Assembly (NCBI GenBank): GCA_039980135.1
Contig: JBDXCV010000009.1
Span: 567,854-631,853 of the forward strand
Reading direction: 5' to 3'
From: Alphaproteobacteria bacterium
GTDB lineage: Bacteria; Pseudomonadota; Alphaproteobacteria; UBA6615
DNA: 64,000 bases
Position numbers and translations under genes: made by a program. Positions 10,334 to 63,574 of this stretch are shown here, piece after piece. The first letter of the stretch is position 1. Each line of letters opens with the position of its first letter. The notes beneath the pieces are model-generated. The model had not been told where the DNA came from. It was given only the letters and a program-made list of their open reading frames with translations, and searched no databases.

Positions 10334-10365
10334 CCGGTCGAAAGCCGGCTCCAAACACAACAGCT

Positions 10366-10380: not shown

Positions 10381-10496
10381 GGTGATTTGTTTCATATTCC
10401 AGTCCGGTACAGAATAACCAAGGCAAGAATATTCAAGCCTGCCGATTCACCCGACCGTCATGCCGGACCGGGCACGACGGTCTATTCGGAGACGAC

Positions 10497-47394: not shown

Positions 47395-47475
47395 TCACCA
47401 CTCCTAAACATTTATCGACCCATACTAGCAAAGGCTTGCGGGCAATGGGCCCGGGCTGTTCAACGGATAGAATTG

Positions 47476-47694: not shown

Positions 47695-47719
47695 CGCACA
47701 TGCCGATGTTGATCGCGCG

Positions 47720-48346: not shown

Positions 48347-48464
48347 ATCAGTGATCGAACTGGGTTTCGGACCAAAGTCACCTTCACGCCGTGTTTCAAT
48401 GTTGTAAAGTCAGCGACATGTTTGCGCGGTACCATGCCACCGTGCTGGGGAGAGAATAATTCCG

Positions 48465-49535
48465 ATGGGCCGTTCGTTAACACGAAGCTGGACACGTCGC
48501 GCCGCGGCGATGATGACCGCATTGGGGTCCCTGCTCCTGTCCGGGCTTCTGACGGTTCCGGCTGCGGCCGATTTCGGTCAGGCGTTCGACCTCTACGTTG
48601 CCAAGGATTTCGAATCGGCCCGCCGGCTGGTCGAACCGGATGCCGAACGAGGCCACCCAGCCGCCCAGTGGCTGCTGGGAACAATGTATCTTCTCGGTCG
48701 GGGAATCGCCGAAAACCCCGCGACCGCGCGCGCCTGGCTCGAAAAATCCGCGTCGTCGAATTATCCGCCCGCCCAGGCCATTCTCGGCCGGATGTACGAG
48801 CAGGGGATCGGCGGCGACCGCGACGCCGAGGAAGCCCATATCCTCTACAGGATGTCGGCCGAACAGGGTTACGCCGACGCGGCCTATCTCCTCGGCCGGC
48901 AATATTACCGTGGTGAAGGAGTACGGAAAGACGGCAAGCGGGCCATCAAATGGCTGACCATCGCTGCCGACGACGGCAACGCCGATGCGCAGTATCTGGG
49001 CGCCCGCATATTGCTGACCAATGAAATCGTCAGGAGCAATCCCGAGCAGGCTGCGACCTGGCTGGACGAAGCGGCGCGCCATGGCCACAGCAATGCCCAG
49101 CTCCTGTACGGCAACACGCTGATGCTGGGGTTGGCCGGCGATTATGACCCCGACAGCGCGCTTGGCTGGATCAAGAAAGCCGCCGGCACGGGCCTGGCGG
49201 AAGCTCAGCTGCGGCTCGGCGACCTCTATAATGCCGGTTTCCAGAGCACGCCCGATTTCAAACGGGCCTACGAATGGTGGACACGTGCCGCCGAGCAGGC
49301 GAACGCCGCAGCCCAACTCCGGCTGGCACGCGCCCACTCCAAGGGTGCGGGCACGGATGAAGACCCGGTCGCGGCGTATATCTGGGCATCACTGTCTGCA
49401 CTACAGGGCAACGAGGATGCATTTGAACTCCGCAAACGCATTCTATCGCGCCTGACGCCGGCAGAAATCAGGGCGGCCGACCGCATGGTCGAGGCGCGTT
49501 TCAACCGCGAAAGCAAAGTCGGCGGCGAGAGTTAG
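48465..49535 (+). CDS. Sel1-repeat (SLR) exported protein
   Basis: A 356-aa protein with an Arg-rich N-region, a hydrophobic core and a cleavage-like AAADFG (about residue 37), then about seven Sel1 repeats of about 36 aa with the pattern A..L...Y..G.G....A..W...AA. SLR proteins are protein-interaction scaffolds, often periplasmic. The start at 48465 could shift to the ATG at 48510 (MMTALGS), which begins nearer the hydrophobic core. No partner is obvious. Confidence 0.88.
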   Translation: MGRSLTRSWTRRAAAMMTALGSLLLSGLLTVPAAADFGQAFDLYVAKDFESARRLVEPDAERGHPAAQWLLGTMYLLGRGIAENPATARAWLEKSASSNYPPAQAILGRMYEQGIGGDRDAEEAHILYRMSAEQGYADAAYLLGRQYYRGEGVRKDGKRAIKWLTIAADDGNADAQYLGARILLTNEIVRSNPEQAATWLDEAARHGHSNAQLLYGNTLMLGLAGDYDPDSALGWIKKAAGTGLAEAQLRLGDLYNAGFQSTPDFKRAYEWWTRAAEQANAAAQLRLARAHSKGAGTDEDPVAAYIWASLSALQGNEDAFELRKRILSRLTPAEIRAADRMVEARFNRESKVGGES

Positions 49536-49624
49536 CCCCATCTCTCCCGGACACATCATGTCCCCAGTCTTTTGCGTCATGCCCCTTCTCCAGGCCGACA
49601 TTCTGCGCTAGCTTCCGCGCCGTT

Positions 49625-50686
49625 TTGGGCACCATTCATCAGATCGGCAACCTTGCCTTGCGGATGTTCCCAACGGAGACCGGGCACGGTCTTGCGTTGC
49701 GCGGGCTGGCCAATGGATTCGGGCCGCGCGAATCTGCCGACGATTTCCCGGTCCTCGACCAGACGGTCTTCGGTCAACGCTTCGCGAACCCGGTCGGCGT
49801 CTCTGCCGGCTTCGACAAGAACGCCGTCGCCGTCGCGGGCGTCGCGCGTCTCGGCGGCGGGTTCGTCGAGGTCGGGGGTGTCACCCCGCAACCACAGGCC
49901 GGCAATCCGCGCCCGCGACTGTTTCGCCTGACGCCCGACCGCGCTGCGATCAACCGTATGGGCTTCAACAATGACGGCGCCGATGCCGTCCTGCAGCGTC
50001 TCGTCCGGCAACAGGGCGAAACGGGGTGCCCCATCGGGGTCAACATGGCGGCAAACGCCACAAGCGCCGATCCGGCCCGGGATTTCGTCGACCTGGTGAC
50101 CCTGTTTGCCCCGGCCGTCGACTACCTGACCATCGATGTCTCCTGCCCCAACACGGAAAACGGCCAGGTCTTCCTGGAGCCCCGCGCGCTCGAGAATCTG
50201 CTTGCGCGTCTGAACACGGCCCGGGCGGAGACCGGCGTTCATCCGGCGATGGTCGCGAAGCTCGCCCCGGATCTCGAAGCGACGCATCTGGCAGAGCTGA
50301 TCGAAATCATCGTTGCCGCCGGCATCAACGCCATCACCCTGTGCAACACCACCACCGCCCGACCCGAGGCTCTACGCAGTCCGCACGCGGCACAACGGGG
50401 CGGCCTGTCAGGGGCTCCCCTGTTCGAGATGTCCAACGAGATGCTGCGCACGGTCTATCGGCAGACCGGCGGCAAGGTAACCCTGATCGGTGTCGGCGGC
50501 GTCCAGAGCGGTGCGGACGCGTATACCAAGATCCGCGCGGGCGCGAGCCTGGTGCAGGTCTATACGGGCCTCGTATTCGCCGGGCCCGGCCTGATCCAGA
50601 ACATCAAAAGAGACCTCGCCTCGTTCCTGGCGCGGGACGGGTATGCAAATATTTCGCAGGCCGTCGGCAGCGAACACAAGCCATGA
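49625..50686 (+). CDS. pyrD: Dihydroorotate dehydrogenase (class 2-like)
   Basis: A 353-aa quinone-linked pyrimidine enzyme. The N-terminal amphipathic extension (FPTETGHGLALRGLANG) and overall length fit class 2. NPVGVSAGFDKNA, then VEVGGVTPQPQAGNPRPRLFRL, the VAKLAPDL block and the C-terminal LIGVGGVQSGADAYTKIRAGASLVQVYTGL are all present. The catalytic-base position reads DVSCPNTENG (Cys174), whereas class 2 enzymes normally have Ser there. The TTG start at 49625 is uncertain; no ATG or SD fits upstream, and the next ATG (49664) would shorten the extension. Confidence 0.93.
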   Translation: MGTIHQIGNLALRMFPTETGHGLALRGLANGFGPRESADDFPVLDQTVFGQRFANPVGVSAGFDKNAVAVAGVARLGGGFVEVGGVTPQPQAGNPRPRLFRLTPDRAAINRMGFNNDGADAVLQRLVRQQGETGCPIGVNMAANATSADPARDFVDLVTLFAPAVDYLTIDVSCPNTENGQVFLEPRALENLLARLNTARAETGVHPAMVAKLAPDLEATHLAELIEIIVAAGINAITLCNTTTARPEALRSPHAAQRGGLSGAPLFEMSNEMLRTVYRQTGGKVTLIGVGGVQSGADAYTKIRAGASLVQVYTGLVFAGPGLIQNIKRDLASFLARDGYANISQAVGSEHKP

Positions 50687-50741
50687 TAGCCTCGCTTGGC
50701 GCCCCGAAAATCGTGCGCGAACCCATCCGCGGAGCGGCATA

Positions 50742-51185
50742 ATGCTCAAGAAACGCCGGGAAATTCTGATCATCGCGTTCGTCGCGGCTATCGTCGTCAT
50801 CGCGGGTCGCTTCTTCGCAGCCGAGAACGCCGAAACTGTGTCTGCGGCGGTCTCGGACACGCCGTTCTCCACGATCAACCAGCGCCCAGAACCGACCGAA
50901 CGGCAAGGCGACGCGATTGTCCTATCCCTGAGCGACAACGCGCCGAGCCGGCCCATACGCGTGGGCAGCAACCAATGCATCCAGTGGTGGGGTGAGCGTC
51001 CGGACGCATACCGGGTCGAGGTCGCCGGCATCGACGGCGACGACTGGCAGCCGAACGAGACGTTTCTCGCGAAGAAGAAAGCCGGCAACCCCGAGTATAA
51101 TTTCCCGGCCTGGTATCGCTTCACCGCCGCCGGTGACGAGACCACGCAACTCTCCTATCAGGTGCTGCGCGGTCTGTGTCAGTAG
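50742..51185 (+). CDS. 147-aa membrane-anchored periplasmic protein, unknown function
   Basis: It begins MLKKRREILIIAFVAAIVVIAGRFFAA (anchor about 8-25), followed by a soluble domain with NQCIQWWGERPDAYRVEV and PEYNFPAWYRFTAAGDETTQ, ending LRGLCQ (two cysteines, possibly a disulfide). The ATG has GGAG 7 nt upstream. It lies 55 nt after pyrD on the same strand. I do not recognise the family. Confidence 0.72.
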   Translation: MLKKRREILIIAFVAAIVVIAGRFFAAENAETVSAAVSDTPFSTINQRPEPTERQGDAIVLSLSDNAPSRPIRVGSNQCIQWWGERPDAYRVEVAGIDGDDWQPNETFLAKKKAGNPEYNFPAWYRFTAAGDETTQLSYQVLRGLCQ

Positions 51186-51429
51186 GGCCCGCCGAGAAGC
51201 TTTGCCCCCACGCGTGATTGCCGGAAATGGCCCGCAGGCGCGAATTATCCTGAATTTCGAGACCAAATCTTGTGCCGCGCGATTCGCCCCTGACGCGGTG
51301 CTGCGCGTTGACTCGCCCGGGGCTGTTACCTACAGTCCGCGCGAAATTTGGCCGGGGCATATGCCGGGTTTTTTCTCACCGATAACCAACGTCCGGCACT
51401 AAGAAACAGGCGTGCGAGGAGGCACAAAA
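51186..51429 (+). promoter_or_regulatory. Leader region with candidate promoter and terminator-like hairpin (attenuator?)
   Basis: This 244-nt gap holds TTGACT (51308-51313), a 17-nt spacer and TACAGT (51331-51336), the best sigma70-like promoter I see nearby. About 15 nt after the expected start, CCGG-GGCATATG-CCGG (51352-51367) is followed by G and TTTTTT (51369-51374), a hairpin plus T-run. The SD (AGGAGG) of the next gene lies at 51416-51421. A 13-codon ORF starts at 51361, but it is not rich in any one amino acid. Confidence 0.45.
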
Positions 51430-52656
51430 ATGACCGATACACCGTGGAAAACAGACGACTGGTTCACCAGCCCCTGGAACTTCGCACCCGAAGTGACCAA
51501 GGACTGGAAGTTCCCCGACAACATCCGCATCCACGACGTCACCCTGCGTGACGGCGAGCAGCAGGCGGGACTCGCGTTTGACTTCGACGACAAGATTCGG
51601 ATCGCCGAAGGCCTCGCGGAAGTCGGCGTTCAGCGCATCGAGGCCGGCATGCCGGTCGTCTCCAAGGACGATGCCAGGGTCGTCGAGGAGCTCGCCAAGC
51701 GCGACTTCGGACCGACCGTCTATGCGTTCGCCCGCTGCATGGTCGACGACGTCAAGCGCGCCGTGGATGCCGGCGTCGGCGGCGTCATCATGGAAGTCCC
51801 CGCCAGCCCCCATCTGATCCAGTATGGCTATCAGTGGGATATGGAGCGGGCCGTCGATCTTTCGATCGAATCCACCAAATTTGCCCATGACAACGGCCTC
51901 GAGGTCGTGTTCTTCCCGATCGATTTCACCCGTTCGGACCTGAAGTGGGTCATCGACCTGATCGATCGCGTCGGCAAGGAAGGCCATATGGACGGCCTCG
52001 CGCTGGTCGACACGATGGGCGCCACCTCGATCCACGCGATGCAGTATTTCGTGCGCTCGATGAAGGAACGCTTCCCGGACATCCCCATGGAAGCCCATTT
52101 CCACATGGATTACGGCATGGGCGTGGCGAACACGATCATGGCCCTGTCCGAGGGTGTTGAAGTCATCCAGTCCACCGTCCTGGGTGTCGGCGAACGCGCC
52201 GGCAACGTCCCCATGGAAGAGACCGTGATGGCGTTGCGCACGCTTTACGACATCGACATCGGCATCAAGCTCGACAAGCTGAAATGGCTGGCCGACATGG
52301 TCCGTGACGTCACCGGCGTCGTGGTTCCGTCGAACCGACCCGTCGTCGGCGACGACCTGTTCAAGGTCGAGTCCGGCATCATCGCCACCTGGCTTCTGAA
52401 TTGCGGTGACGAGTATCAGACCGAAGTCATGCCATTCCGTCCGCGCATGGTCGGCCAGGCCGAGCCGGAGACCGTCATGGGCAAGGGCTCGGGCATCGAT
52501 ACGGTCAAGCAGTGGCTCGAGCGCAACCAGATCCGCGTCGAAGAGACCAAGGCCATGGAAATCCTGATGGCCGTCAAGGACTGGGCACTGATCCACAAGC
52601 GCCTGATGAAGGAAGACGAGTTCAAGGCGTTGGCCGAGAGCCTGCTCGACGACTAA
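51430..52656 (+). CDS. HMGL-like (pyruvate carboxyltransferase domain) enzyme
   Basis: A 408-aa TIM-barrel acyl-CoA aldolase/synthase family member. HDVTLRDGEQQAGLAF (metal Asp in TLRDG) starts the barrel at about residue 35, and the metal-binding HFHMDYGMGVAN supplies the HxH histidines. GVGERAGN is the synthase-family signature. The family includes 2-isopropylmalate, citramalate and homocitrate synthases; this protein lacks the C-terminal LeuA regulatory domain, so the product cannot be assigned. AGGAGG lies 8 nt upstream and a strong terminator follows at 52687. Confidence 0.85.
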   Translation: MTDTPWKTDDWFTSPWNFAPEVTKDWKFPDNIRIHDVTLRDGEQQAGLAFDFDDKIRIAEGLAEVGVQRIEAGMPVVSKDDARVVEELAKRDFGPTVYAFARCMVDDVKRAVDAGVGGVIMEVPASPHLIQYGYQWDMERAVDLSIESTKFAHDNGLEVVFFPIDFTRSDLKWVIDLIDRVGKEGHMDGLALVDTMGATSIHAMQYFVRSMKERFPDIPMEAHFHMDYGMGVANTIMALSEGVEVIQSTVLGVGERAGNVPMEETVMALRTLYDIDIGIKLDKLKWLADMVRDVTGVVVPSNRPVVGDDLFKVESGIIATWLLNCGDEYQTEVMPFRPRMVGQAEPETVMGKGSGIDTVKQWLERNQIRVEETKAMEILMAVKDWALIHKRLMKEDEFKALAESLLDD

Positions 52657-52686
52657 AGCCTGATCGTCTTCCGACGACACGTTGCG

Positions 52687-52714
52687 AAACCCCTCCCCTT
52701 CGGGAGGGGTTTTT
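52687..52714 (+). terminator. Intrinsic terminator of the HMGL-like gene
   Basis: AAACCCCTCCC, loop CTTC, GGGAGGGGTTT, then more T: an 11-bp perfect stem with five T residues at 52710-52714. It lies 30 nt past the stop codon and is the strongest intrinsic terminator in the window. Confidence 0.92.
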
Positions 52715-52728
52715 CGTTTAGGCCGTTG

Positions 52729-52750
52729 GATTCTCGTATGTCGGAGAATC
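52729..52750. promoter_or_regulatory. Inverted repeat upstream of the RidA gene
   Basis: GATTCTC-GTATGTCG-GAGAATC has perfect 7-bp arms and an 8-nt spacer. It sits between the terminator and the RidA start, so it may be an operator or an mRNA hairpin. Confidence 0.4.
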
Positions 52751-52800
52751 GGTATCGCATAGCATCAGGCTCGGCGCGGCTATCAACCCGGAGACAAAAA

Positions 52801-53190
52801 ATGGAACGCAGTCTGGTACTGAACGGCAATCCGATGGAGGAAATCGTCGGGTTTGCCCGTGCCGTAAGGGTCGGGCCATACATCTCTATCGGCGGGACCG
52901 CCCCGGTTGGCCCCGACGGGAAAACCGTCGGGGTCGGTGACGCCGCAAGGCAGGCCGAGCGCTGCTTCGAGATCGCCGGAGACGCGCTCGAACGCGCGGG
53001 TTCCGGCTGGCACGATGTGGTGCGGACACGCCTGATCCTGACCGACATCGATGACTGGAAGGCCGTGGTCGATGTGCGGGCGAAGTTCTGCCGCGAGGCC
53101 AAGCCGGTGGACACCATCATGCAGGTGATACGCTTCGTGAACCCGGAATGGCTTGTCGAGATCGAGGTGGACGCCGTTGTTGCCGACTAG
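52801..53190 (+). CDS. RidA/YjgF/YER057c/UK114 family protein
   Basis: A 129-aa trimer-forming family that deaminates reactive enamine/imine intermediates in its RidA branch. It has AVRVGPYISIGGTAPVGPDGKTV, RLILTDIDDWKAVV, then a C-terminal block VNPEWLVEIEVDAVV. The canonical RidA Arg (in R-x-x-V-x-V) is not obvious at the expected place, so this may be a non-deaminase branch. GGAG lies 7 nt upstream of the ATG. Confidence 0.85.
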   Translation: MERSLVLNGNPMEEIVGFARAVRVGPYISIGGTAPVGPDGKTVGVGDAARQAERCFEIAGDALERAGSGWHDVVRTRLILTDIDDWKAVVDVRAKFCREAKPVDTIMQVIRFVNPEWLVEIEVDAVVAD

Positions 53191-53255
53191 AGCCTGATTA
53201 ACTCGAAGTCAGCTGCGAATCCCGCCAGGCGAGAGACGGGTTTACGCGTGGAGAA

Positions 53256-56200
53256 TCAGTCACCGAATTCATCGTTGCCGAACACCGGCCCGGCCGGCTG
53301 TGACGGTGACGAGGACCGGGATTCCTCGGGCGCTGCGCGGCGCGCCGTGAACGGCACCTTGCCGGATGCCGCAATCTTGTAATCTCCGCCCTCACCGATC
53401 AGGCTGAAGGGCGCCCAGAAAATCGGATGGGCATAGGAGAAGGCGGGCTTGCCCGTCTCCGGATCGACAAAGCCGGGTCCGTCGATCAGCGCAATCTGAG
53501 CCTGGCGCAGCGCCTCGGCTCGGGTGAGCCCGGGCTGCTGCGTCTGCCGCGTGAATATGTCAGTGGTCAGCAACCGCGCGGACGTCGTCTCGACCGGCCA
53601 ATTCGACACCAGGAGCGCCCGCGTTCCGGCATAAAAGAAGGCGCGCCCAAGGCCTGACACGGCTTCCGCACCGGCCCCGGCGGCCGTGCCGGTATTGCAG
53701 GCCGACAGCACCACCCAGTCGGCATTCATCTCAAGCTCGAATATTTCCCCCATCTGCAGCAGACCGTCACCATTCTGATCGCCCGCGATATGCGGCGCGG
53801 TCAATGCAAGCGCCGGTTCGACCAGGCCATCGAGGTCACCGGGAACGAGGCCGTGGGTCGCGAACGCCACAACCCGGTACGCGTCGAGCGGCGCGGCGCG
53901 AACCGATTGCTCATTCGCCTGTTTACCGATGAACACATCGCGCGCCGGATCAGCGTCCAATGCGCTGGCCATGGTGCGAATTTCATCGGCCGTATCGGGC
54001 AAACGCGGGAGTTGCGAGAATTGCGCGGCATCGACCTCCTGCGTTCGCGGCAATGATCGCAGACGCACGGGTACATTGCGCAGTTGCAGACCGCCACGAC
54101 TGATGAGATCGCCCTGCGCGCCGGGCAAGGGAGTCTGGGAGCGTTGCGCATCATTGAAAACGGGGTCCCCGAAGCCCAGGAACGCGCGGTCTGCCTGGCC
54201 CGTCCCGGACAAGGACCGCAGCGCCACAAGTGACGCAACCGACGGCATCACCATCACCGAATGTGTCCGGGCCAGCCAGGGCACGTCCCGATACCGGTCG
54301 AAGAGTTGTGCATTGTCGGCACCCGCCGCCGCCGTCGCCGTCGGCAGCAATGCGAATGGAATTTGGCCCAACGGGCCGTCTGCGACGACAATCAAGTTGG
54401 GCGTTTCATTCCATCCATCGGCCACAGGCGCCAACAGGCTTTGGTAAATGCGATGCGCCAGGCGCGTGTCAAAATCCGGGATATCGGCCAGCGTGCTCGC
54501 CTGCGGGTCCAGCGCGCGACGCAATTGCGTCGCGGCCGCGCCGAGCCGCACCCGGCCGATCCCCGCCACCTTGAACCCGACATCGCCGGACTTGCCGAAG
54601 GCCCACACATATGTCCGGTCGTCATCTACATAGGTCACGAAAATGGACTCGTCGTCCGCGAGCGCATTGCGCACGTCTGCAAGTTCAGACGGCGGCGGAT
54701 CGATCAGGCGGATATAATCGGGGAACCGATCCTCCAGATCCTCGCGCACCTCCGCGCGCTCCCCGCGCAGAGCATCGATATTCTCGCGCAAATCACGCGT
54801 GGCAGACGCATCACTCTGACCTTCCGGCGCGGATTGCAACGCGGTGAGGAGGCCAAACAACGCCGCGATCTGGCGCAGCAGATCCTGCTCCTGACGGACC
54901 AGCTTCGCGAGCTGCGCATCGCGTGCCGCCGCGCGTGCGCTCGACTGCGCGACCGCCCGCTGGACCGAGCTCCCCCGGGCCGCGTCCGAGATCCGGAACG
55001 CCTCCGCCGCGATAGCCGCACGCTCTTCCGGAGATGGCACATTGCCGTAGATATGGGCGAGGACGCCCATATAGCCTTCAAGCACGGCGCGCAGGCGGAT
55101 GGAACGCGCCGTGGCGCTGGTTTCTTCGCCCTCAACATCGCGCGAACGCGACAAGAGAATCGGCAGGGCTTTGCGAAAATCCGCAAGCGCTCGCTCATGT
55201 TCGCCCTTGTGATACAAGCCGATCGCGACGATCCCGCGCGCCATCGCCGCGTTGAAATGTTTTTCGCCCAGGCGGCGCAAGCTTCGTTGCGCCAAATCGT
55301 TCGCGATGCGCAAGCCGGCATCGAACTCACCCACCTCGTAGTAGATCAGGGCGGAATCGACCGTCGCGGCGATACTGCGCCGGCGCAACTGTTCCTTGCC
55401 AGCGGTCAGCCGATCGACGTCACGCACGATCTCCGCAGCCGCCTCCCACTCCCCCTGACCGGCAAGCGCCCGCGCCAGACCGATGCGAACACGCAGGAGA
55501 TTCACCGAAGTCTCCCGCGCGCCCAATTGTCTCAGGATAGCCTCGGATTCCCGCCCCAGAGCGACCGCCTCGTCGAATCGGCCTTGCACAAAAACAGTGC
55601 GGCCCAGGAAGTCAATGACATTCGCCGATGTCGGCGTCAGTTTCCCGTAGTCGCGAATGTTGCGGCGCATTGCGTCGCGCATCTGCGCTTCCGCCTCGAC
55701 TTCGCGTCCGAGCGTCATCAGCATCCGCGTACGCGTGATCTGCAAACTTGTCAGCCGGCCATCCAGCAGGACGCGTGCCTGGGGGGTGCGGCCCAGGAAG
55801 GCGGCCGCACTCGTGAGTTCGGATATCGCTTCGACGATGATTTTCTCGGCATCTTCATGCTTCCCACGCGCCGCGAGAACCCGGGCATCGGCATCCAGAA
55901 TCTGATGGTTTGCCATGCTCCGGCGTGGTGGCGGAACCCGCGCGGGGAGCCGGCGATAGATGGCGCGCATATCCTCTATCAGGTTTTCAGCGCGTGGCAG
56001 TCGGCCCATGCCCAGCTCCGCGCGCGCCAGCTGTGCCATGCCGCTGATGCGACGTCCCGGCGGCAGATCACGCTCGGAGTCGACGCGCACCCGGGCCGCC
56101 TTGAGGGCGCCACCTATGTTACCGGCCCGATTTTCCGCAAAGCCGAGATCACGGGCAATCGTGGCAACAGGACCATTATTCCTTTGGGCCAGCGCAAGGG

Positions 56201-56483
56201 CCTGGCGCAGATCTTCGATGGATTGCTGAATCCGGCCCAGTACGCCGGCCGCGTTCCCGCGCTGCTGAAAGAAGCGCGCCAGTGCCACGCCTTGCATGCT
56301 CGACGGCGGCTCCCCGTCGGCAATCGCTCGCACACCCGCCGCGCCGCCCGCCTGCTGTGCAAACCCGGCTGGTGACCCCGCCAGTGCCAAACCAAGGATC
56401 AGGACCATCGCCAAGGCGAACAACCACGCGCGTCCCGGCCCGGGTTCAGATATCCTCAGCTTCGTTCCGAACATCGTCGTCAT
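53256..56483 (-). CDS. Exported TPR-CHAT (caspase-like protease) protein
   Basis: A 1075-aa protein. It has a signal peptide with a hydrophobic core (WLFALAMVLILGLALAGSPAG) and probable cleavage near FAQ-QAG (about 45). TPR-type helical repeats follow (about 55-500), then a coiled coil (about 505-585) and a C-terminal CHAT domain (about 600-1030). The CHAT dyad is intact: His877 in AFATHGLVPGDLDG and Cys929 in VVLSACNTGTAAG; GEIFELEMNADW and SNWPVET are further CHAT landmarks. The tail (about 45 aa) is disordered. The ATG at 56483 has GAGGGA 6 nt upstream. It is last in the CHASE2-cyclase operon. It probably acts as an envelope protease or scaffold; the target is unknown. Confidence 0.9.
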   Translation of the reverse strand: MTTMFGTKLRISEPGPGRAWLFALAMVLILGLALAGSPAGFAQQAGGAAGVRAIADGEPPSSMQGVALARFFQQRGNAAGVLGRIQQSIEDLRQALALAQRNNGPVATIARDLGFAENRAGNIGGALKAARVRVDSERDLPPGRRISGMAQLARAELGMGRLPRAENLIEDMRAIYRRLPARVPPPRRSMANHQILDADARVLAARGKHEDAEKIIVEAISELTSAAAFLGRTPQARVLLDGRLTSLQITRTRMLMTLGREVEAEAQMRDAMRRNIRDYGKLTPTSANVIDFLGRTVFVQGRFDEAVALGRESEAILRQLGARETSVNLLRVRIGLARALAGQGEWEAAAEIVRDVDRLTAGKEQLRRRSIAATVDSALIYYEVGEFDAGLRIANDLAQRSLRRLGEKHFNAAMARGIVAIGLYHKGEHERALADFRKALPILLSRSRDVEGEETSATARSIRLRAVLEGYMGVLAHIYGNVPSPEERAAIAAEAFRISDAARGSSVQRAVAQSSARAAARDAQLAKLVRQEQDLLRQIAALFGLLTALQSAPEGQSDASATRDLRENIDALRGERAEVREDLEDRFPDYIRLIDPPPSELADVRNALADDESIFVTYVDDDRTYVWAFGKSGDVGFKVAGIGRVRLGAAATQLRRALDPQASTLADIPDFDTRLAHRIYQSLLAPVADGWNETPNLIVVADGPLGQIPFALLPTATAAAGADNAQLFDRYRDVPWLARTHSVMVMPSVASLVALRSLSGTGQADRAFLGFGDPVFNDAQRSQTPLPGAQGDLISRGGLQLRNVPVRLRSLPRTQEVDAAQFSQLPRLPDTADEIRTMASALDADPARDVFIGKQANEQSVRAAPLDAYRVVAFATHGLVPGDLDGLVEPALALTAPHIAGDQNGDGLLQMGEIFELEMNADWVVLSACNTGTAAGAGAEAVSGLGRAFFYAGTRALLVSNWPVETTSARLLTTDIFTRQTQQPGLTRAEALRQAQIALIDGPGFVDPETGKPAFSYAHPIFWAPFSLIGEGGDYKIAASGKVPFTARRAAPEESRSSSPSQPAGPVFGNDEFGD

Positions 56484-56538
56484 CAGCTTTCCCTCACTGA
56501 CACGCACATGTTTGCAAGTATAACCGGTTGAAACCACC

Positions 56539-58656
56539 CTATTTCGCATCGAGCGCATAGACGCCGTCCCAGGCTTCCGGCGGCTCGGCCGCAAGCCTCC
56601 GGGCGCGCGCCGCCATCGCCGCCGCCGGCGAATCTTCAGCGGAAATCGTTTCCCACAGCGCCGCCGCCGCCTCGAACCGACCGGCCGCGTAGTCCGCCAA
56701 CGCCTGCGCATACACCGAACGCGTCCCGGCCGATGTCCCCTCCGCCGGCGAACACAGACCCACCGGCTCCGCCCGGCCCACAACGCGCACGTGATCGATC
56801 GTGCGAAACTCGACTGCCGCGCGGCACCGCGCGACGGTAGAATCGGATACCAGAATATTGGAACCATAGGCCTTGTTCGCACCCTCGAGGCGCGCGGCCA
56901 AATTCACGGCATCGCCCATCACCGTGTAGTTGAAACGGCGCGCGGACCCGATATTGCCGACGAGAATGCGGCCCGTATTGATTCCGATGCGCTGGTTCAG
57001 CTCGATGTCATGGTCAGCCTTCATGTCACGGTTGAGATCCTCGATCCGGCGCTGACATTCCATTGCGGCGGCGACCGCGTTGTCGGCATGATTGGCATCA
57101 TGATGGGGGGCACCAAAGACGGCGACGATGGCGTCCCCGATATACTTGTCTACGAAACCGCCATGCCGCTCGATGACGTCGGTCATCGCCGACAGATACT
57201 CGTTCAGGATCCGGACCAGGTTTCCGGGACTGATGCCTTCCGACAGGGTTGCGAAACTGGCGAGGTCGGAGAAGAATACTGTCAGCTCGCGCGTCTCGCC
57301 GCCCAGCGCCGGCATCTCGTTGCGCTCCACCATCTGCTCGATGATCGAGGGCGCGAGATAAAGCCCGAACATCCGGCGCAGCATCCGCTTGTCGCGATCG
57401 GCAACGGTGAACCGGTACGCCCCCATCAGCGCAAAGACGATCGCAACGGCGATGGGCGGGTCATAAAGCGGGACCACCAGCCCCTTGTGGAAAAGCACCA
57501 CCGCCGCGCCCACCCACAGGCCAGCGACCAGAACCGCCAACGTGCCGGCAAGCCACGCGCTGAACCAGATCGTGGCGACGCCGACGACGGTGGCCAGCGC
57601 CAGGGTAATCATTCCCGTCGCGCCAGGTCCGGCCTGGGCCAGAAGATTTCCGTGCAGCAGATTATTCACCGCGAACGCGTGCATATAGACGCCGGGAACG
57701 CTGTCGCGCGTGATCCCCGGGTCGAGCACACCGGGGAGTTCATCAAGAGTACAGCGGGGTGCGAACGCCGCAAGGTCGGGCGCCGTGGCGAACCGGAGCG
57801 ATGAAAGTTTTCGATCCTCGACATCGAGGACCGCGCCGAACAGGACGACCTTTCCGGCAAAATGCCGTGCGAAGAAGTCACGGTCCCCCGCCTGGGCGCA
57901 GGCATGCAGGTCGGCGAAGGAGTAAGTCGGAATGCCCCGCTGATCATCGTCAAAGTTGATCAGCATGTTGTTGCCCGTCACGGTCGGCAATGGCGCACCA
58001 TCCAGGTGCGCATGGCCGGTATCATCGAAAATCAGTCGCTCACCGAGCGCACGTGCGGCGAGTTCGAGGGCCAAAGAGGGTTCGAACTGCGGCACCTCGT
58101 CGCCACCCGCGCGCGCGAGGCTGACCGGCACACCCCGCACGATTCCATCTGCGTCGGAGTAAAGATTCGCGGCCCGGATGTTTGCCCCATGGCCGACCGC
58201 AAAACGTTGGCCGACATTGGGAAGAATCGGTTGCGTTGAGTGCTGCACCTTGCTGAGCACAATCTCCCCCGCGCGACCGAGCCGGCGCAGGCTCTGCAGG
58301 AATTCCCGATCGAACCCGCGTATCTGGGAGGCCACGCTCGTGGGCAGGATGATATCCATGCCGATAACCGCGGCATCAGCTTCGGCGACGGCATCGAACA
58401 CCTGGGCGATCTCCCCGGTCCACATCACCTTCGGAATGTTGTCAAAGGGCGCACGCCGATAGGTTTCCTCGTCGATGGCGATCACGACGGTCGGCGATTC
58501 AGACCGCTCAAACTGGGGACCGAACACGGCCTGACGCAACCAGACGAGGCTGTCCGTTGACAGGCCGTCCAGCGTACTCGACCACGGCCCGGATACCGCA
58601 ACCGTTGCGGCTGTGGCCGCCAATGCAGCTGCAATCAGGGCTTTCAATCGCGCCAA
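56539..58656 (-). CDS. CHASE2-domain class III adenylate cyclase
   Basis: A 705-aa inner-membrane receptor cyclase. It has an N-terminal TM, a large periplasmic CHASE2 sensor (about 30-340, with VVIAIDEETYRR and AVIGMDIILP), then three TM helices (about 345-420), then the cytoplasmic cyclase. Catalytic residues are the metal ligand Asp464 in FFSDLA, Lys504 and the second metal Asp508 in DKYIGD, and FNYTVMGDAVNLAARLE with Asp at the purine-selective position, so ATP is the probable substrate. A short helical C-terminus follows. It starts 1 nt after the preceding gene. Confidence 0.93.
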   Translation of the reverse strand: MARLKALIAAALAATAATVAVSGPWSSTLDGLSTDSLVWLRQAVFGPQFERSESPTVVIAIDEETYRRAPFDNIPKVMWTGEIAQVFDAVAEADAAVIGMDIILPTSVASQIRGFDREFLQSLRRLGRAGEIVLSKVQHSTQPILPNVGQRFAVGHGANIRAANLYSDADGIVRGVPVSLARAGGDEVPQFEPSLALELAARALGERLIFDDTGHAHLDGAPLPTVTGNNMLINFDDDQRGIPTYSFADLHACAQAGDRDFFARHFAGKVVLFGAVLDVEDRKLSSLRFATAPDLAAFAPRCTLDELPGVLDPGITRDSVPGVYMHAFAVNNLLHGNLLAQAGPGATGMITLALATVVGVATIWFSAWLAGTLAVLVAGLWVGAAVVLFHKGLVVPLYDPPIAVAIVFALMGAYRFTVADRDKRMLRRMFGLYLAPSIIEQMVERNEMPALGGETRELTVFFSDLASFATLSEGISPGNLVRILNEYLSAMTDVIERHGGFVDKYIGDAIVAVFGAPHHDANHADNAVAAAMECQRRIEDLNRDMKADHDIELNQRIGINTGRILVGNIGSARRFNYTVMGDAVNLAARLEGANKAYGSNILVSDSTVARCRAAVEFRTIDHVRVVGRAEPVGLCSPAEGTSAGTRSVYAQALADYAAGRFEAAAALWETISAEDSPAAAMAARARRLAAEPPEAWDGVYALDAK

Positions 58657-58657
58657 T

Positions 58658-59341
58658 TTAGAAACGGATCAGACGTGAAAGCTTTGGCTGATCGCCGGCC
58701 TCCGCGAACGCATCGATGTCGAAGATAATTTCATGACTTTCGGTGCCCGCCTTCAACCGAGCGCGATAGAGCCCCCCTGCGGCCAGGGTGATGTCCCGCG
58801 TCGCCAGGTCATTCGCACCGCGGCGGATAACGGTCTCGATCGGCGCGCCCGCCTGATCGACACGTTCGATGGTCAAGGTCCCGGCAACCTCGCTGCGCAC
58901 CAGCGGGCTCAGGCCATGGATGGTCAATGCCGGCAGGGATTTTGCGGCGGCCTTGCCCGACCCGCTGCGAAACGCCACGACCCCGCTGTTGTTGGTCTGT
59001 CCTTCGCCGAGTTCGACCTGGCCGGTATCACAGGGCACCGTCACCCGCCGCACATTGCCACCGGCGATCTCACTGCCCTGCAGGCCGACCGTGATAGTGC
59101 CGCCAACGATGGTTTCCTGCGTACAACTCGCGAAGTAACCCAGCACCAGCCGTTCACCCGCCGCAAGCTGAACAACATCACCCGGCTCGACATAATCCAT
59201 GAACGCCAGCTTCGATCCGGCCGCCTCGATATCCTCCACGATGGCGCTCGGGCCGGCCTGGGTGGCCGACGCGAGAAAACTTGCCACCAGGAAGACAGGC
59301 GCGGCGATCCAGCTTCGATTCGCGGTGGGGAAATGGATCAT
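58658..59341 (-). CDS. Exported beta-rich protein, first gene of the CHASE2/CHAT operon
   Basis: A 227-aa protein with a signal peptide (PVFLVASFLASATQA-GPS). The mature part has YVEPGDVVQLAAGERLVLGY, then CTQETIVGGTITVG and GGNVRRVTVPCD (a Cys pair, possibly a disulfide), resembling FecR/SpeB-like beta modules but not clearly either. I prefer the ATG at 59341 with AGGAG 7 nt upstream; an ATG at 59356 overlaps the upstream relic's TGA by 4 nt. The 1-nt gap to the cyclase argues for a shared function. Confidence 0.8.
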   Translation of the reverse strand: MIHFPTANRSWIAAPVFLVASFLASATQAGPSAIVEDIEAAGSKLAFMDYVEPGDVVQLAAGERLVLGYFASCTQETIVGGTITVGLQGSEIAGGNVRRVTVPCDTGQVELGEGQTNNSGVVAFRSGSGKAAAKSLPALTIHGLSPLVRSEVAGTLTIERVDQAGAPIETVIRRGANDLATRDITLAAGGLYRARLKAGTESHEIIFDIDAFAEAGDQPKLSRLIRF

Positions 59342-59352
59342 GAAGATACTCC

Positions 59353-59427
59353 TCATTTATGTCCGCGACCGCCCGCGCCGATCAGGCTGAACGACGCCGG
59401 GAAGATCGGATGGATGCAGGAAATCAT
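59353..59427 (-). pseudogene. Relic of a second CHAT gene (C-terminal end)
   Basis: Translates as MISCIHPIFPASFSLIGAGG, then RGHK and TGA. It matches the end of the CHAT domain of the gene at 53256, SYAHPIFWAPFSLIGEGG. At DNA level the stretch at 59379-59420 and the homologous one near 53396 agree at roughly 80% by eye (CGATCAGGCTGAA, then ATCGGATGG). No further CHAT sequence is found upstream; an in-frame stop lies 11 codons before. It could still be translated as a 24-aa peptide. Confidence 0.75.
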
Positions 59428-59454
59428 CGTTGCGCTCGTCCCCGTATCCCGTGC

Positions 59455-59489
59455 TCTTCAATTATTGAAGATAATGGCGAACAAGACAA
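59455..59489 (-). promoter_or_regulatory. Candidate promoter/operator of the CHASE2/CHAT module
   Basis: On the minus strand TTGTCT (59489-59484), a 17-nt spacer and AATAAT (59466-59461) form a good sigma70-like promoter. The -10 lies inside the inverted repeat TCTTCAA-TAA-TTGAAGA (59471-59455), with perfect 7-bp arms. Binding here would block RNA polymerase, so this looks like a repressor-controlled promoter. Confidence 0.55.
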
Positions 59490-59495
59490 TTTGAA

Positions 59496-59509
59496 GTGAC
59501 CGCGGTCAC
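59496..59509. promoter_or_regulatory. 14-bp perfect palindrome GTGACCGCGGTCAC
   Basis: It overlaps the stop codon of the oxidoreductase gene and lies 7 nt upstream of the -35 of the CHASE2/CHAT promoter. It may be an additional operator half-site, or the stem of a weak terminator (no T-run follows on the minus strand). Confidence 0.4.
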
Positions 59510-60498
59510 ACGTTGGAGGCGTGCTCGAAGACAACCACCAGCGCACCGGTCGTGGTGCGGGAATCCAGCGCCGCGTGCGCCTCGGCGATGTTCGCAAGTT
59601 CGTAGGTACCGGTAATGTTCGCCTTTATCGTCCCGCCGGAGATTGCCGCCACAACCTCTTCCATCATCGCTGCTTTCTCTTCCGGCGTGGCCGTGTAGTC
59701 CTTCATCGACGCCTTGGTGAAGATCAGGGACTTCTGGTTGAGCTCCAGCGCGTCGATCGGCGGCGGGCCGGACGCGTGGCCGTAATTGACGAACCAGCCG
59801 CGCGGGGCGAGGGCACGCAGATTGCCGTGATAGGTGTCAGCCCCGACCGCATCGAAAACGACCGGCACCCCCGCGCCGCCGGTTATGTCGAGAACGGCGT
59901 CGGCGAAATCCTCTTTCATGTAATCGATCACATGGGCGCAGCCATTTTTCTCTGCCGTCCGGAACTTATCGGGCGAGCCGACCGTGCCGATGACCGTCGC
60001 ACCCAGATGCGTCGCCCATTGGGCCAGCAGGCTGCCCATACCACCCGCGGCGGAATGAACAAGAACTGTTTCTCCCGCTTGCACCCGGTAGAGCCGGCGC
60101 AGCAGATACTGGGCGGTCATGGTGCGCACGAAGGCGGCAACCACGGTCGCGTCGTCGAGTTCGGCCGGCGGCACATACAGGTCGGCAGCGGGGACGATCC
60201 GCGCGTCGGCATAGGCGCCCGCGTTGAACAGATACGCAGCGCGATCGCCGGTCTCGTAATCCGCCACGCCATCGCCGACCGCCGCGATCGTCCCGACACC
60301 TTCAATGCCAAGCACGGTCGGCAGGGGTGGTTTCAGGAAGTAACGCCCCTGGCGCATGTATGAATCCGCGAAATGGATCGCTGCGGCACTCTGCCTGAGC
60401 ACGACCTCGCCCGGCCCCGGCAAGGGCAGCGCATCGGTCTCGATCCTGATGACCTCGGGGTCGCCATATTCGTGTATGCGCGCGACGCGGGTTTTCAT
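59506..60498 (-). CDS. Quinone oxidoreductase (zinc-independent MDR family)
   Basis: A 330-aa NADPH-dependent medium-chain dehydrogenase/reductase. It has HFADSYMRQGRYFLKPPLPTVLGIEG near the N-terminus and the cofactor motif VLVHSAAGGMGSLLAQWATHLGA (AAGGxG type). The structural zinc cysteines are absent, as in quinone reductases. The C-terminal dimer half ends with TTTGALVVVF. It lies on the minus strand downstream of egtD with a 41-nt gap, so it may be co-transcribed with the ergothioneine genes. Confidence 0.92.
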   Translation of the reverse strand: MKTRVARIHEYGDPEVIRIETDALPLPGPGEVVLRQSAAAIHFADSYMRQGRYFLKPPLPTVLGIEGVGTIAAVGDGVADYETGDRAAYLFNAGAYADARIVPAADLYVPPAELDDATVVAAFVRTMTAQYLLRRLYRVQAGETVLVHSAAGGMGSLLAQWATHLGATVIGTVGSPDKFRTAEKNGCAHVIDYMKEDFADAVLDITGGAGVPVVFDAVGADTYHGNLRALAPRGWFVNYGHASGPPPIDALELNQKSLIFTKASMKDYTATPEEKAAMMEEVVAAISGGTIKANITGTYELANIAEAHAALDSRTTTGALVVVFEHASNV

Positions 60499-60539
60499 GG
60501 CTCGGGTTTCCTGGCGCCAAATCGTCGTCAGTTAGTGCC

Positions 60540-61523
60540 CTACGCCACCCGCAGATAGTGCAGTGAGAACAAGTTGCGCGCGTCTGTCCAGTGACGGAAG
60601 GCGCGCCAGCCGGCCTTCGCCGCCAGCGCGTGAAACTCGTCCACATCGTATTTGTGGGAATCTTCTGTGTGGATCGATTCCCCGGCCGCAAAGCTGAAGT
60701 TTTGGCCGTCCACCCGGACCTCCTGGTCCCAGTCGCTCACCAGATGCATCTCGATACGGCCCTGGTCCGGTATCCAGCGCGCATCATGGGTGAAGGCATC
60801 CAGGTTGAAGTTGCCGCCAAGCTCGTCATTCACCCGGCGCAGGACGTTCAGGTTGAACTCACCTGTCACGCCGGCGGCATCATTGTAGGCGGCGTGCAAA
60901 ACGCCCACGTCCTTACGCAGATCGACACCAATCAGAAGCCCGTTATCGGTGCCCAGATCGGTGGCCGCGGCGCGCAGGAACTCGACCGCCGCCGGTCGCG
61001 TGAAATTGCCGATCGTCGAACCGGGAAAGAAACCGATCCGGGCGGCCTCGCCCGCGATCTCCGGCACATCGAACGGCTGGGTGTAATCCGCCGCGATCGG
61101 CACCACGGGCAGGTCGGGATAGGCATCCGCCAACGACTTCGCCGATTCCAGCAGGTGATCGCGCGAGATGTCGACGGGGATGTAGGCCGCTGGTGTTTCG
61201 AGCGCATCCAGCAAGATCCGGATCTTGGTGCTCGACCCGCTGCCGAACTCGACAACAGTGGCATTGGCGCCGATCAGCTCGGCGAACTCGGCCGCGTGAT
61301 CGCGCAACAGCGCCGTCTCCGTGCGGGTCGGGTAATACTCCGGCAGTTCGCAGATCGCATCGAAAAGCTGTGAACCGCGCTCGTCATAGAAATACTTGCT
61401 CGACAGCTTCTTCTGCGGGAGCGCCAGCCCCGCGAGCACGTCATCAAGAAAACTGTCCGCCGCGTGATCATACTCCACATAGTCGTGGAGCGGGCCGAGA
61501 CTTTCCGCCGTCGCGCCGCTCAA
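60540..61523 (-). CDS. egtD: L-histidine N(alpha)-methyltransferase
   Basis: A 327-aa enzyme making hercynine, the first step of ergothioneine synthesis. The family pattern includes LSSKYFYDERGSQLFDAICELPEYYPTRTE, then VVEFGSGSSTKIRILLDAL, FPGSTIGNF, GVDLRKD and NLNVLRRVNDELGGNFNLDAF, with IEMHLVS further on. The start is TTG at 61523, overlapping the egtB stop by 4 nt (TTGA) with GGAG 7 nt upstream. It is coupled to egtB. Confidence 0.95.
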   Translation of the reverse strand: MSGATAESLGPLHDYVEYDHAADSFLDDVLAGLALPQKKLSSKYFYDERGSQLFDAICELPEYYPTRTETALLRDHAAEFAELIGANATVVEFGSGSSTKIRILLDALETPAAYIPVDISRDHLLESAKSLADAYPDLPVVPIAADYTQPFDVPEIAGEAARIGFFPGSTIGNFTRPAAVEFLRAAATDLGTDNGLLIGVDLRKDVGVLHAAYNDAAGVTGEFNLNVLRRVNDELGGNFNLDAFTHDARWIPDQGRIEMHLVSDWDQEVRVDGQNFSFAAGESIHTEDSHKYDVDEFHALAAKAGWRAFRHWTDARNLFSLHYLRVA

Positions 61524-62833
61524 TGTGAGGCTCCGTCCGCATCGTCCGCCAGGCGTACGCCGGCGAACACCCAGCGCATCGCGGGATAGAAGAAGTTCCG
61601 GTAAGTGGCGCGGGTGTGCCCTTCCGGGGTTACGCAGGCACCGCCGCGCAAGACAAACTGATTGGCCATGAATTTTCCGTTGTACTCACCGACGGCACCC
61701 GACAGGGGCTTGAAACCGGGATATGGGACATAGGGGCTCTGGGTCCACTCCCAGGCGTCACCAAACATCTGTTCCGGCCGGTCTGTCATCTCGCCGGGCG
61801 CCGGCGCGGCCCGCAACAAGCCGGACCCGACAAAATTCCCTGCCACCGGCTGATCGCGGGCAAATACCTCCCACTCGCCTTCCCGCGGCAGGCGCTTGCC
61901 GGCCCAACGCGCATAGGCATCCGCCTCATAGAGACTGACATGGCAGACCGGTGCCTGGTCGTTGACCGGCTGCAGGCCCGACAGGGACATGGCGCACCAC
62001 TCGCCGTCGAGCAATTGCCAGTAGAGCGGCGCATCCCAGCCGTTTTCGCCGACCGCGGCCCAGCCATCGGACAGCCAGAGTTCCGGGCGGCCATAACCGT
62101 TGTCGGCCATGAATGCCTTCCACTCACCATTCGTCACCAGCCGGGACGCCAGCCGGAACGGCGCCAGGTGGACGCTGTGGCGTGGCCCCTCATTGTCGAA
62201 GGCGAATTCGGCGCCGTCATGGCCGATCTCGACCAGCCCGCCGTCATGATCGAACCAGCGCAATTCCGGCGTCTTGCGCGCCGGGGCGGCGCGATAGGCC
62301 TGATAGGCCGGCGCGACGCTGTTGTGCGAAAACGCATGGAGTATATCCATCAGGATCAACTCCTGATGCTGCTGTTCGTGATGCAGGCCCAGCGCGATGA
62401 GCGGCGCGACTCTGTCCCAGGTTGCCACATCGGCATCCGTGATCAGGGCCCGCATCGCAGCGTCGACATGGTCACGGTAGGCCTTCACCTGCACCGCCGT
62501 GGGGCGGGTCAGCAAGCCACGTTCCGGGCGCGGATGACGCGCGCCAACGGCGTCGTAGTAGGAATTGAAGAGAAACTGATAGTGCGGATCGAGCGGCGCA
62601 TAATCCGCCGCAAAGTCGCGCAGGATCATGGTCTCGAAGAACCAGGTGATATGGGCGCGATGCCATTTGGTCGGGCTCGCATCGGGCATCGACTGCACGA
62701 CCTGATCTTCGGCCGACAACGGCTCCGCGAGGCGTTCGGTCTCGCCGCGCACCCAGTTGAAATGATCGAGAACCTGCCCCCGGTCGCGCGGATGCGCGTC
62801 GAGGATCGCCGGCTCGGACCCCAAGGAAGTCAC
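61520..62833 (-). CDS. egtB: Ergothioneine sulfoxide synthase (EgtB type)
   Basis: A 437-aa non-heme iron enzyme joining hercynine to a thiol. It has an N-terminal DinB-like domain with SPTKWHRAHITWFFETMIL and the iron ligands in LGLHHEQQHQELILMDILHAF, then a formylglycine-generating-type domain ending MANQFVLRGGACVTPEGHTRATYRNFFYPAMRWVFAGVRLA. I start at GTG 62833 (VTSLGSEPAIL) with AGGAG 7 nt upstream, better than an in-frame ATG at 62866. The thiol donor may be gamma-Glu-Cys or Cys; gshA is in this window. Confidence 0.94.
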   Translation of the reverse strand: MTSLGSEPAILDAHPRDRGQVLDHFNWVRGETERLAEPLSAEDQVVQSMPDASPTKWHRAHITWFFETMILRDFAADYAPLDPHYQFLFNSYYDAVGARHPRPERGLLTRPTAVQVKAYRDHVDAAMRALITDADVATWDRVAPLIALGLHHEQQHQELILMDILHAFSHNSVAPAYQAYRAAPARKTPELRWFDHDGGLVEIGHDGAEFAFDNEGPRHSVHLAPFRLASRLVTNGEWKAFMADNGYGRPELWLSDGWAAVGENGWDAPLYWQLLDGEWCAMSLSGLQPVNDQAPVCHVSLYEADAYARWAGKRLPREGEWEVFARDQPVAGNFVGSGLLRAAPAPGEMTDRPEQMFGDAWEWTQSPYVPYPGFKPLSGAVGEYNGKFMANQFVLRGGACVTPEGHTRATYRNFFYPAMRWVFAGVRLADDADGASH

Positions 62834-63068
62834 GGCGCATCTCCTGTTGGCGCCCGCGTCCCGCATGACCGTCTTTCCGGGACACACAACTCCGCAGCGC
62901 ACTGCTTGCCGCGGATCGAATACCGTCCGGATCAAGTCCCGGACGTGACGGTCGTGCGCGAGTAAACCAAGCCCACTCGCACGCCGTCAACCAAAAGCCC
63001 CGAGAATTTAAGCGTTTGGCCGGGCTTCGCAATATTGACGCACAGCAAGGTCCGACTATGTTGACCGC
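62834..63068. other. Divergent intergenic region egtB/DODA (235 nt)
   Basis: I see no coding signal. It contains the promoter listed at 63035-63062 on the plus strand. On the minus strand, in front of egtB, I see no convincing hexamer pair. Confidence 0.5.
63035..63062 (+). promoter_or_regulatory. Candidate promoter placed for a leaderless mRNA
   Basis: TTGACG (63035-63040), a 16-nt spacer and TATGTT (63057-63062). Transcription would begin about 63069, which is the A of the ATG; the sequence before the ATG has no SD. Confidence 0.5.
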
Positions 63069-63440
63069 ATGAACGCAGATACACCGACGCCAGAAGGCTT
63101 TCACGCCCATGTTTACTACGATGCCGACACCAAGGCGGAAGCCGAGGCTTTGCGGGCGGAAATCGACTCGCGCTACGACGATGTCGTCCTCGGCCGCTGG
63201 CACGACAAGCCGGTCGGGCCGCACCCGTTCTGGAGTTATCAGGTCGCGTTCAGCCCCGAACTGTTCGGCGATATCGTGCCCTGGCTCGCCCTGAACCGCC
63301 GCAACCTGACGATCCTTGTGCATCCCGAGACCGGCGACGATCTCACGGACCATTCGACCTACGCGATGTGGCTCGGCGACAGCGCGACCCTCGATCTGAA
63401 ACGATTCCGCGAACGCGCCGCGAAGAGCGCGCAAAAATAG
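63069..63440 (+). CDS. DOPA 4,5-dioxygenase family protein
   Basis: A 123-aa extradiol-type protein. It has FHAHVYYD (His12, His14), then GPHPFWSYQVAF and NRRNLTILVHPETGDDLTDHSTYAMWLG, the complete DODA-family pattern. Bacterial members can ring-open catechols, but the natural substrate is often unknown. There is no SD before the ATG, consistent with a leaderless transcript. Confidence 0.9.
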   Translation: MNADTPTPEGFHAHVYYDADTKAEAEALRAEIDSRYDDVVLGRWHDKPVGPHPFWSYQVAFSPELFGDIVPWLALNRRNLTILVHPETGDDLTDHSTYAMWLGDSATLDLKRFRERAAKSAQK

Positions 63441-63476
63441 CTGACGAAACTGTGTAAACGCGCGCAAACGAACGGT

Positions 63477-63504
63477 TTGCAAGCTCTCCCCGGACCGCTA
63501 CAAC
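63477..63504 (+). promoter_or_regulatory. Candidate promoter of the FAH-family gene
   Basis: TTGCAA (63477-63482), a 16-nt spacer and TACAAC (63499-63504), about 70 nt upstream of the start codon. The match to consensus is moderate. Confidence 0.4.
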
Positions 63505-63574
63505 ACGCGCAAGCAATCCGATGGCCTGATCGTGTTCACGCGCGGCGCCAGTCAACATCAGGGGGAGACTCAAC

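Follow-up and report, generated by a model that had tools for sequence, protein, structure and literature searches.

What would an exported caspase-fold protein do next to a receptor cyclase? The question is raised by three adjacent genes in a 64,000-nucleotide stretch of an Alphaproteobacteria bacterium (GTDB lineage UBA6615; GenBank assembly GCA_039980135.1, contig JBDXCV010000009.1, positions 567,854 to 631,853), referred to here as the window. Little is known of the ligands and co-receptors of CHASE2 receptors, and the caspase-fold proteins of bacteria have mostly been discussed as intracellular enzymes of death or defence. A first-pass annotation, made from the DNA letters and their translations, had read the three genes as an envelope module in which a proteolytic or stress signal is converted to cyclic AMP (cAMP). 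The genes are termed A, B and C:

58658-59341, minus strand: gene A, small protein of 227 amino acids, predicted exported and beta-rich, in two parts, without a Pfam family
56539-58656, minus strand: gene B, CHASE2 class III receptor cyclase of 705 amino acids by Pfam, with a TTG start
53256-56483, minus strand (ATG at 56483): gene C, caspase-fold protein with TPRs and a CHAT domain by Pfam, predicted exported

The coordinates bear out the layout that the annotation had described, with all three genes on one strand and gaps of 1 nt between A and B and 55 nt between B and C. We found the same set of genes in other bacteria. The grouping of A, cyclase and CHAT is real and well supported, and within the literature searched it looks like an undescribed signalling unit.

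Recurrence of the three genes

Clustering was assessed in a class survey of 289 alphaproteobacterial genomes, with a CHAT match in 59 and, among the matches listed, a CHASE2 match in 138. The surroundings of 96 CHAT places were taken and 92 were scored (56 genomes, 38 family codes). Four places that the CHAT profile did not recover (L130, L133, L135, L137) were left out, and short CHAT pieces were not included (G110:C94, G110:C124, G039:C113, G161:C22, G179:C14, G222:C152). A CHASE2 cyclase gene was present within 5 kb in 21 of the 92 loci, on the same strand in 16, and these loci came from 20 genomes and 16 families. By chance about 0.9 would be expected, an estimate derived from gene densities, rounded genome sizes and CHASE2 counts that ignores shared descent. 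Gene A, or a small protein of another branch of loci that we termed AL2, was found within 5 kb in 20 of these 21 triad loci (the exception is L049) and in none of the other 71. Loci from other genera of the window's family (L138-L141) stand outside these counts; in L140 the CHAT gene is directly followed by a CHASE2 cyclase.

The gene order varies. Most relatives of this branch have CHAT-A-cyclase, in contrast to A-cyclase-CHAT in the window, and in L073 and L205 the CHAT gene is on the opposite strand. Since the set is conserved while its order changes, a functional link is well evidenced. Because the trio recurs in distantly related bacteria, it looks like a signalling unit rather than a chance grouping.

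The survey was also read from the side of gene A. Here, 30 loci lying in fetched regions were examined; other listed A matches were mostly weak, and one locus (L260) is on a 4.2-kb contig. Within 5 kb, a CHASE2 cyclase was found in 22, CHAT in 10, a C14 caspase gene in 6, either caspase-fold gene in 16, and none of these in 5. Three A genes (L262, L263, L264), from three genomes of one genus and with similar neighbours, have neither a CHASE2 cyclase nor a caspase-fold gene within 5 kb. The neighbourhood search that the first-pass annotation had called for thus largely favours a system, on the strength of the 21 loci with a cyclase (20 with A or AL2). Its caveat, that the genes might only rarely occur together, applies in part: it fits CHAT, with its 71 of 92 loci lacking a nearby cyclase and its presence in 10 of 30 A loci, but not the pairing of A with CHASE2 (22 of 30).

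Properties of the three proteins

Gene B encodes a CHASE2 receptor cyclase. Pfam matches were CHASE2 (6e-28) and Guanylate_cyc (2.8e-24). The protein has an N-terminal hydrophobic segment, CHASE2 at residues 17-360, hydrophobic segments at about 345-420 and a class III cyclase domain at 455-630 with the two metal-binding Asp, the Asn and the Arg. Asp464, Lys504 and Asp508, already described as intact, are present, together with Thr578, Asn585 and Arg589. Among 11 aligned cyclases no change was seen at Asp464, Asp508, Asn585 or Arg589; conservation is lowest at Lys504 (K in eight, Q in two, R in one). The rule for adenylate versus guanylate specificity is a Lys plus an Asp or Thr. Gene B has K504 and T578, and its presumed product is cAMP rather than cGMP. 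The closest paralogue in the same genome (54 percent identity) is on contig C3 (L142).

Gene C belongs to the CHAT family, with a match to PF12770 at 5e-50 (171 bits against a cut-off of 24) and the dyad His877/Cys929 (numbered from the ATG; 875/927 in alignment A6). The annotation had noted this dyad as intact and had named its loss in orthologues as a sign against the module. No such loss was seen: all 19 CHAT proteins that were aligned keep both residues, and 12 of these proteins are encoded in loci that also have A and a CHASE2 cyclase. Gene C is thus far a putative peptidase. An AlphaFold2 model (pLDDT, the predicted local distance difference test, 81.4) was searched with Foldseek. Separase (best E 1.7e-12) and Csx29/TPR-CHAT (8eey, 7y84, 8d9f), both known caspase-fold proteases, were among the top matches, with template modelling (TM) scores by query length of 0.29-0.43 in the rows shown and large root-mean-square deviations. 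Because of these deviations, and because many further matches are plain helical repeats, the comparison supports fold and domain order and not a mechanism. Gene C alone had no match among PDB sequences at E<=0.01. The anti-sigma factor DdvA appeared as a fold match, but is not among the best 60 of 103 sequence matches of the CHAT profile, and was dropped.

Export was scored next to other proteins. Of the CHAT proteins near CHASE2 cyclases, 19 could be scored, and 16 of them begin with a signal-peptide-like or lipobox sequence (9 with a lipobox). The same holds for 51 of 63 other CHAT frames and for 38 of 161 large unrelated frames from the same loci. These counts come from a simple rule of our own, and a stricter first rule gave 16 of 23. 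For genes A and C, the prediction of export is based on visible signal sequences and this kind of rule rather than on SignalP. Two of the 21 triad frames (L055, L080) were dropped, lying at a contig edge or being too short. The 63 frames used for comparison differ somewhat from the other 71 CHAT loci: cut or short frames were dropped and L138-L140 were included, of which L140 has a cyclase beside CHAT. For gene C the rule settled on a hydrophobic run that precedes the true start, and the signal peptide of this protein therefore rests on hydropathy and on reading of the sequence. The exported protein would be soluble or, as predicted for many relatives, lipid-anchored. With the grouping in 16 of the 38 scored family codes, a varying order, the dyad kept and these export signals, the earlier description as an envelope module is supported.

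Gene A had no Pfam match at E<=1. A 43-sequence alignment of its family has 6 invariant columns, among them Cys73 and Cys104, which could form a disulphide if the protein resides where conditions are oxidising. Weak Pfam matches in the family number ten, each on one member alone. FecR (PF04773) was matched at E<=1 by none of the 43 A members and none of 9 AL2 members, and assignment to FecR was not kept; a structural relation is a separate possibility. In an AlphaFold2 model (pLDDT 85.5) residues about 138-212 were Ig/FN3-like (VIA-align, Z about 6-7), with no other kind of match, and Foldseek gave no match at E<=0.001. The N-terminal part is barely tested by this fold comparison and should not be called a new fold. 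A search of PDB sequences with the A profile returned a single row at E 0.25 and was not useful. A 9-sequence A profile matched 34 of the 289 class genomes (41 matches listed). In a phylum-wide draw a 43-sequence profile matched 15 of 398 genomes, 12 from the same class and 8 of those in one genus. When A and AL2 were compared by hhalign, the probability was 70.6 with E 3.9e-5; the AL2 profile reaches the gene A of the window at E 0.009 only. AL2 is probably a distant relative of A.

Caspase-fold partners and wider neighbourhoods

CHAT can be replaced by a C14 caspase gene. This was observed beside A and CHASE2 cyclase in L201, L222 (same strand) and L207 (divergent, in a gammaproteobacterial metagenome-assembled genome). 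In L210, an Azospirillum metagenome-assembled genome, CHAT, C14, A and CHASE2 cyclase stand in one row (4436-12052), so that both caspase-fold families are present. The genome of the window has two C14 matches and two CHAT genes, and both C14 genes and one CHAT gene adjoin A or a CHASE2 cyclase. On contig C10 (L259:9946-12837) a second A copy is directly downstream of a C14 gene (a frame of 735 amino acids, with a signal sequence by eye); no CHASE2 cyclase was detected in this 20-kb stretch. On contig C3 (L142:10484-16082) a WD40-C14 gene, with a signal sequence by eye, immediately follows the closest paralogue of gene B and is flanked by an AL2 gene at its far end; another CHASE2 cyclase is nearby (L142:6312-8324). 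The second CHAT gene lies near the start of contig C15, with no CHASE2 match within 5 kb on the contig and, by eye, a glutamate-synthase-like neighbour. Four C14 partners were translated. All start with signal sequences and have the His/Cys motifs AGHG with DTCKSG, DSCFAG or DACRN, both judged by eye. Since the CHAT and C14 partners carry export signals, the caspase-fold protein, A and the CHASE2 domain would face one compartment.

Named genomes were scanned with a gene B profile, and 79 of the best 80 loci were scored (L251 was not). L182 (Bradyrhizobium) starts at the cyclase and was counted as lacking A. CHAT or C14 was present within 5 kb of the cyclase in 9 of 39 loci with A, compared with 1 of 40 without. 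As many A-cyclase pairs have no nearby caspase gene, the core of A and cyclase may be able to work without a linked caspase. The tree of A is poorly resolved, with partner labels scattered, and its starred branches force two changes for CHAT and two for C14. Switching of caspase partners around A is therefore suggested and not shown. The labels in this tree were assigned by hand, L055 and L202 are long branches, and L258 is labelled 'none' although a BLAST cluster puts a C14-like frame nearby. The alignment for the tree did not contain L201, L266, L270, L244 and L247; L078 is out of frame in alignment A3 and was left out of A5.

Two-partner secretion (TPS) genes accompany other branches. On plasmid pMSHV of Sphingobium herbicidovorans (L302) the following genes run in one direction: Crp/Fnr (with cyclic-nucleotide-binding and Crp helix-turn-helix domains), CHAT, CHASE2 cyclase, AL2 (E 1e-35), ShlB and a hypothetical protein of about 2090 amino acids. 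This last protein is a TpsA candidate by position alone, and its first 409 residues match no Pfam family. Some AL2-type loci have a large repetitive protein beside CHAT, with a TPS secretion domain in L052 and MBG repeats in L076 and L054, and ShlB-like genes occur in L049, L054 and L078. Four Azospirillum plasmid records carry A, and in all three that were read A, cyclase and ShlB are in a row; L257 has the order A-cyclase-ShlB-TPS protein. The genome of the window gave no match to ShlB (PF03865) or to the TPS domain (PF05860), in a search that did match the chosen positive genomes, so that this genome has no recognisable TpsA/TpsB pair. Two other plasmids, of Azospirillum brasilense (L298) and Sulfitobacter (L299), have CHAT close to a divergent 'caspase family protein', with no CHASE2 annotated in the stretch.

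Other genes of the window near the module appear metabolic by eye. Two adjacent genes (60540-62935) seem to resemble EgtD and EgtB of ergothioneine synthesis. Outside the module, a Sel1-repeat protein with a probable signal sequence is encoded at 48465-49535 on the plus strand (Sel1 1.1e-45).

Direction of signalling and alternatives

We class the module with the CHASE2 receptor-cyclase systems that have exported partners. Its parts are of known kinds. The accessible parts of the reports on Sinorhizobium meliloti link the CHASE2 cyclases CyaD1, CyaD2 and CyaK to an extracytoplasmic FecR protein (SMc02177) and a large TPR protein with a signal peptide (SMb20495) (PMC5498481, PMC13001267). This link is functional, for SMc02177 also positional, and the cAMP output goes to the Crp-family regulator Clr. 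Unlike in the window, no enzymatic domain, hence no CHAT, is reported there for these partners, and gene A is not detectably FecR by Pfam. Perception uses the outer-membrane barrel NsrA, which acts upstream of the cyclases, and a plant protein signal (PMC13001267). MtxA of magnetotactic bacteria has a signal peptide and an Ig-like domain, as in the C-terminal part of A, and its gene is followed by a CHASE2 cyclase gene, but the parts consulted mention no caspase-fold partner; MtxA and A were compared by description (PMC4439547). In the Burkholderia BiofilmReg operon an exported FecR-LysM protein likewise stands beside a CHASE2 receptor, whose output is a histidine kinase, and the passages available describe the operon without a caspase-fold gene (PMC5192318). 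A metacaspase-CHASE2 fusion of Trichodesmium also ties a caspase fold to CHASE2 (PMC3501461, PMC2853523). In the excerpts at hand its caspase is predicted to be cytoplasmic (PMC3501461), whereas that of the window would be a separate protein on the outer, CHASE2 side, with cyclase output. Related elements in papers seen in part are a WD40-CHASE2-DUF928 cluster of Nostoc (PMC5587647) and HetF, a putative protease that needs its active site and for which a CHAT domain is named (PMC8406250). Csx29 of Craspase and separase share with gene C the helical repeats followed by a caspase-fold domain with a His/Cys dyad; they are intracellular, in contrast to gene C, which is predicted to be exported and is encoded with a cyclase. 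No description of the whole grouping was found in the literature searched, including what could be consulted of PMC8195603, with preprints and most subscription papers outside the scope of the search.

We propose that the locus is one of many copies of a module that passes an envelope signal on to cAMP: the caspase-fold protein would cut A or a surface protein and thereby change cyclase output. We consider the chances of this proposal about even. The exported TPR-CHAT protein, A and the periplasmic CHASE2 domain would act jointly at the outer face of the inner membrane. The TPR array would recognise a protein of the envelope or surface (a TPS exoprotein may fill this role in one branch), and the CHAT domain would cut either this protein or an A adaptor bound to CHASE2. 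The resulting change in CHASE2 would set the cyclase rate, and cAMP would act via Crp-type regulators. In this view A, CHASE2 and the cyclase would form the core, with the caspase-fold protein as its variable input.

Several results weigh against this proposal. CHASE2 cyclases are missing within 5 kb from 71 of the 92 CHAT loci, and among six CHAT-bearing plasmid records only one has CHASE2 annotated in its stretch, the other five showing neither CHASE2 nor cyclase. Among the best 80 named loci, 30 of 39 A-cyclase loci have no detected CHAT or C14 within 5 kb of the cyclase; Bradyrhizobium contributes 20 of the 39, with a caspase gene detected in 0 of 20 (L178 and L183 have one short flank each). 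Export of CHAT is probable, but most other CHAT proteins score as well and the triad does not stand out in this. By the hhalign value, homology of A and AL2 is no more than probable. Since ShlB and TPS matches are missing from the genome of the window, a TPS exoprotein cannot be what all copies of the module cut. That the proteins touch, that one of them or a surface protein is cut, which one this is, which way the signal runs and that the nucleotide is cAMP are all inferred.

The results from S. meliloti favour the opposite direction. There, the accessible text gives SMc02177 and SMb20495 as Clr/cAMP targets that are dispensable for perceiving the tested plant signal (PMC5498481). The first-pass annotation had suggested the other order, in which an envelope signal would be converted to cAMP and CHAT would cut a partner or be regulated. 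In the reverse order, the CHASE2 cyclase would sense an outside signal alone or with A, and cAMP would act through a Crp-type regulator to control the exported CHAT protein. CHAT would then be the output, an enzyme for maturing or removing proteins of the surface, for example TPS adhesins. The Crp/Fnr gene upstream of CHAT-cyclase-AL2-ShlB in S. herbicidovorans fits this order, as do the position of NsrA upstream of the cyclases and the common A-cyclase pairs without a nearby caspase gene. Against it, the three genes of the window are nearly contiguous on one strand, and CHAT is therefore probably made together with the cyclase and not induced by it. We consider this reverse order, the strongest of the alternatives, possible but unlikely; the present data cannot separate CHAT as input from CHAT as output.

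Should CHAT act without cutting, its TPRs would bind a ligand and the CHAT domain would dock on A or CHASE2 as a scaffold or receptor. The finding of both CHAT and C14 around the same A-cyclase pair fits a shared docking role, and a substrate is so far only hypothetical. The conserved dyad of the CHAT proteins and the His/Cys motifs of the C14 partners make such a role rather improbable. A function in phage defence or programmed death, where the cyclase makes the signal and the caspase-fold protein kills as in Pycsar or type III-E CRISPR, is less probable still. Pycsar pairs a cyclase with an adjacent gene for a cyclic-nucleotide effector. With PADLOC, models for the PycC cyclase were matched by gene B (best 5.1e-33) and a caspase model by both C14 proteins of the genome, and the fold of gene C is similar to Csx29. 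However, the PycC match is confined to the cyclase domain of what is a membrane receptor with CHASE2, and neither A nor C, its two neighbours, gave a PADLOC match at E<=0.01. The predicted export would keep the CHAT protein apart from nucleic acid and cAMP in the cytoplasm, and the neighbouring genes look metabolic. No type III-E CRISPR system, in which TPR-CHAT is encoded with gRAMP (Cas7-11), Csx30 and a CRISPR array, was seen by eye among the frames at 46000-64000, where no dedicated CRISPR or Cas7-11 search was made. On the PADLOC results this reading was set aside. CHAT, A and CHASE2 cyclases are each also found apart, as three unrelated genes meeting by chance would be. Yet the excess of observed over expected pairs in the survey, the 16 families and the changed gene order make chance adjacency extremely improbable, unless shared descent or sampling accounts for the excess, and it was rejected.

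Tentatively, we envisage a class of protease-gated receptor cyclases, in which exported CHAT or C14 proteins, interchangeable between lineages, would cut an adaptor or ligand and the CHASE2 cyclase would read the cut as cAMP. The small exported family A (43 aligned members, no Pfam model) marks the system. The conserved pairing of caspase-fold proteins with CHASE2 receptors in the envelope offers a concrete, testable context for the exported members of the CHAT and C14 families, and it supplies CHASE2 cyclases with a candidate input. If the proposal is true, caspase-type proteolysis in the envelope would be read out as a second messenger.

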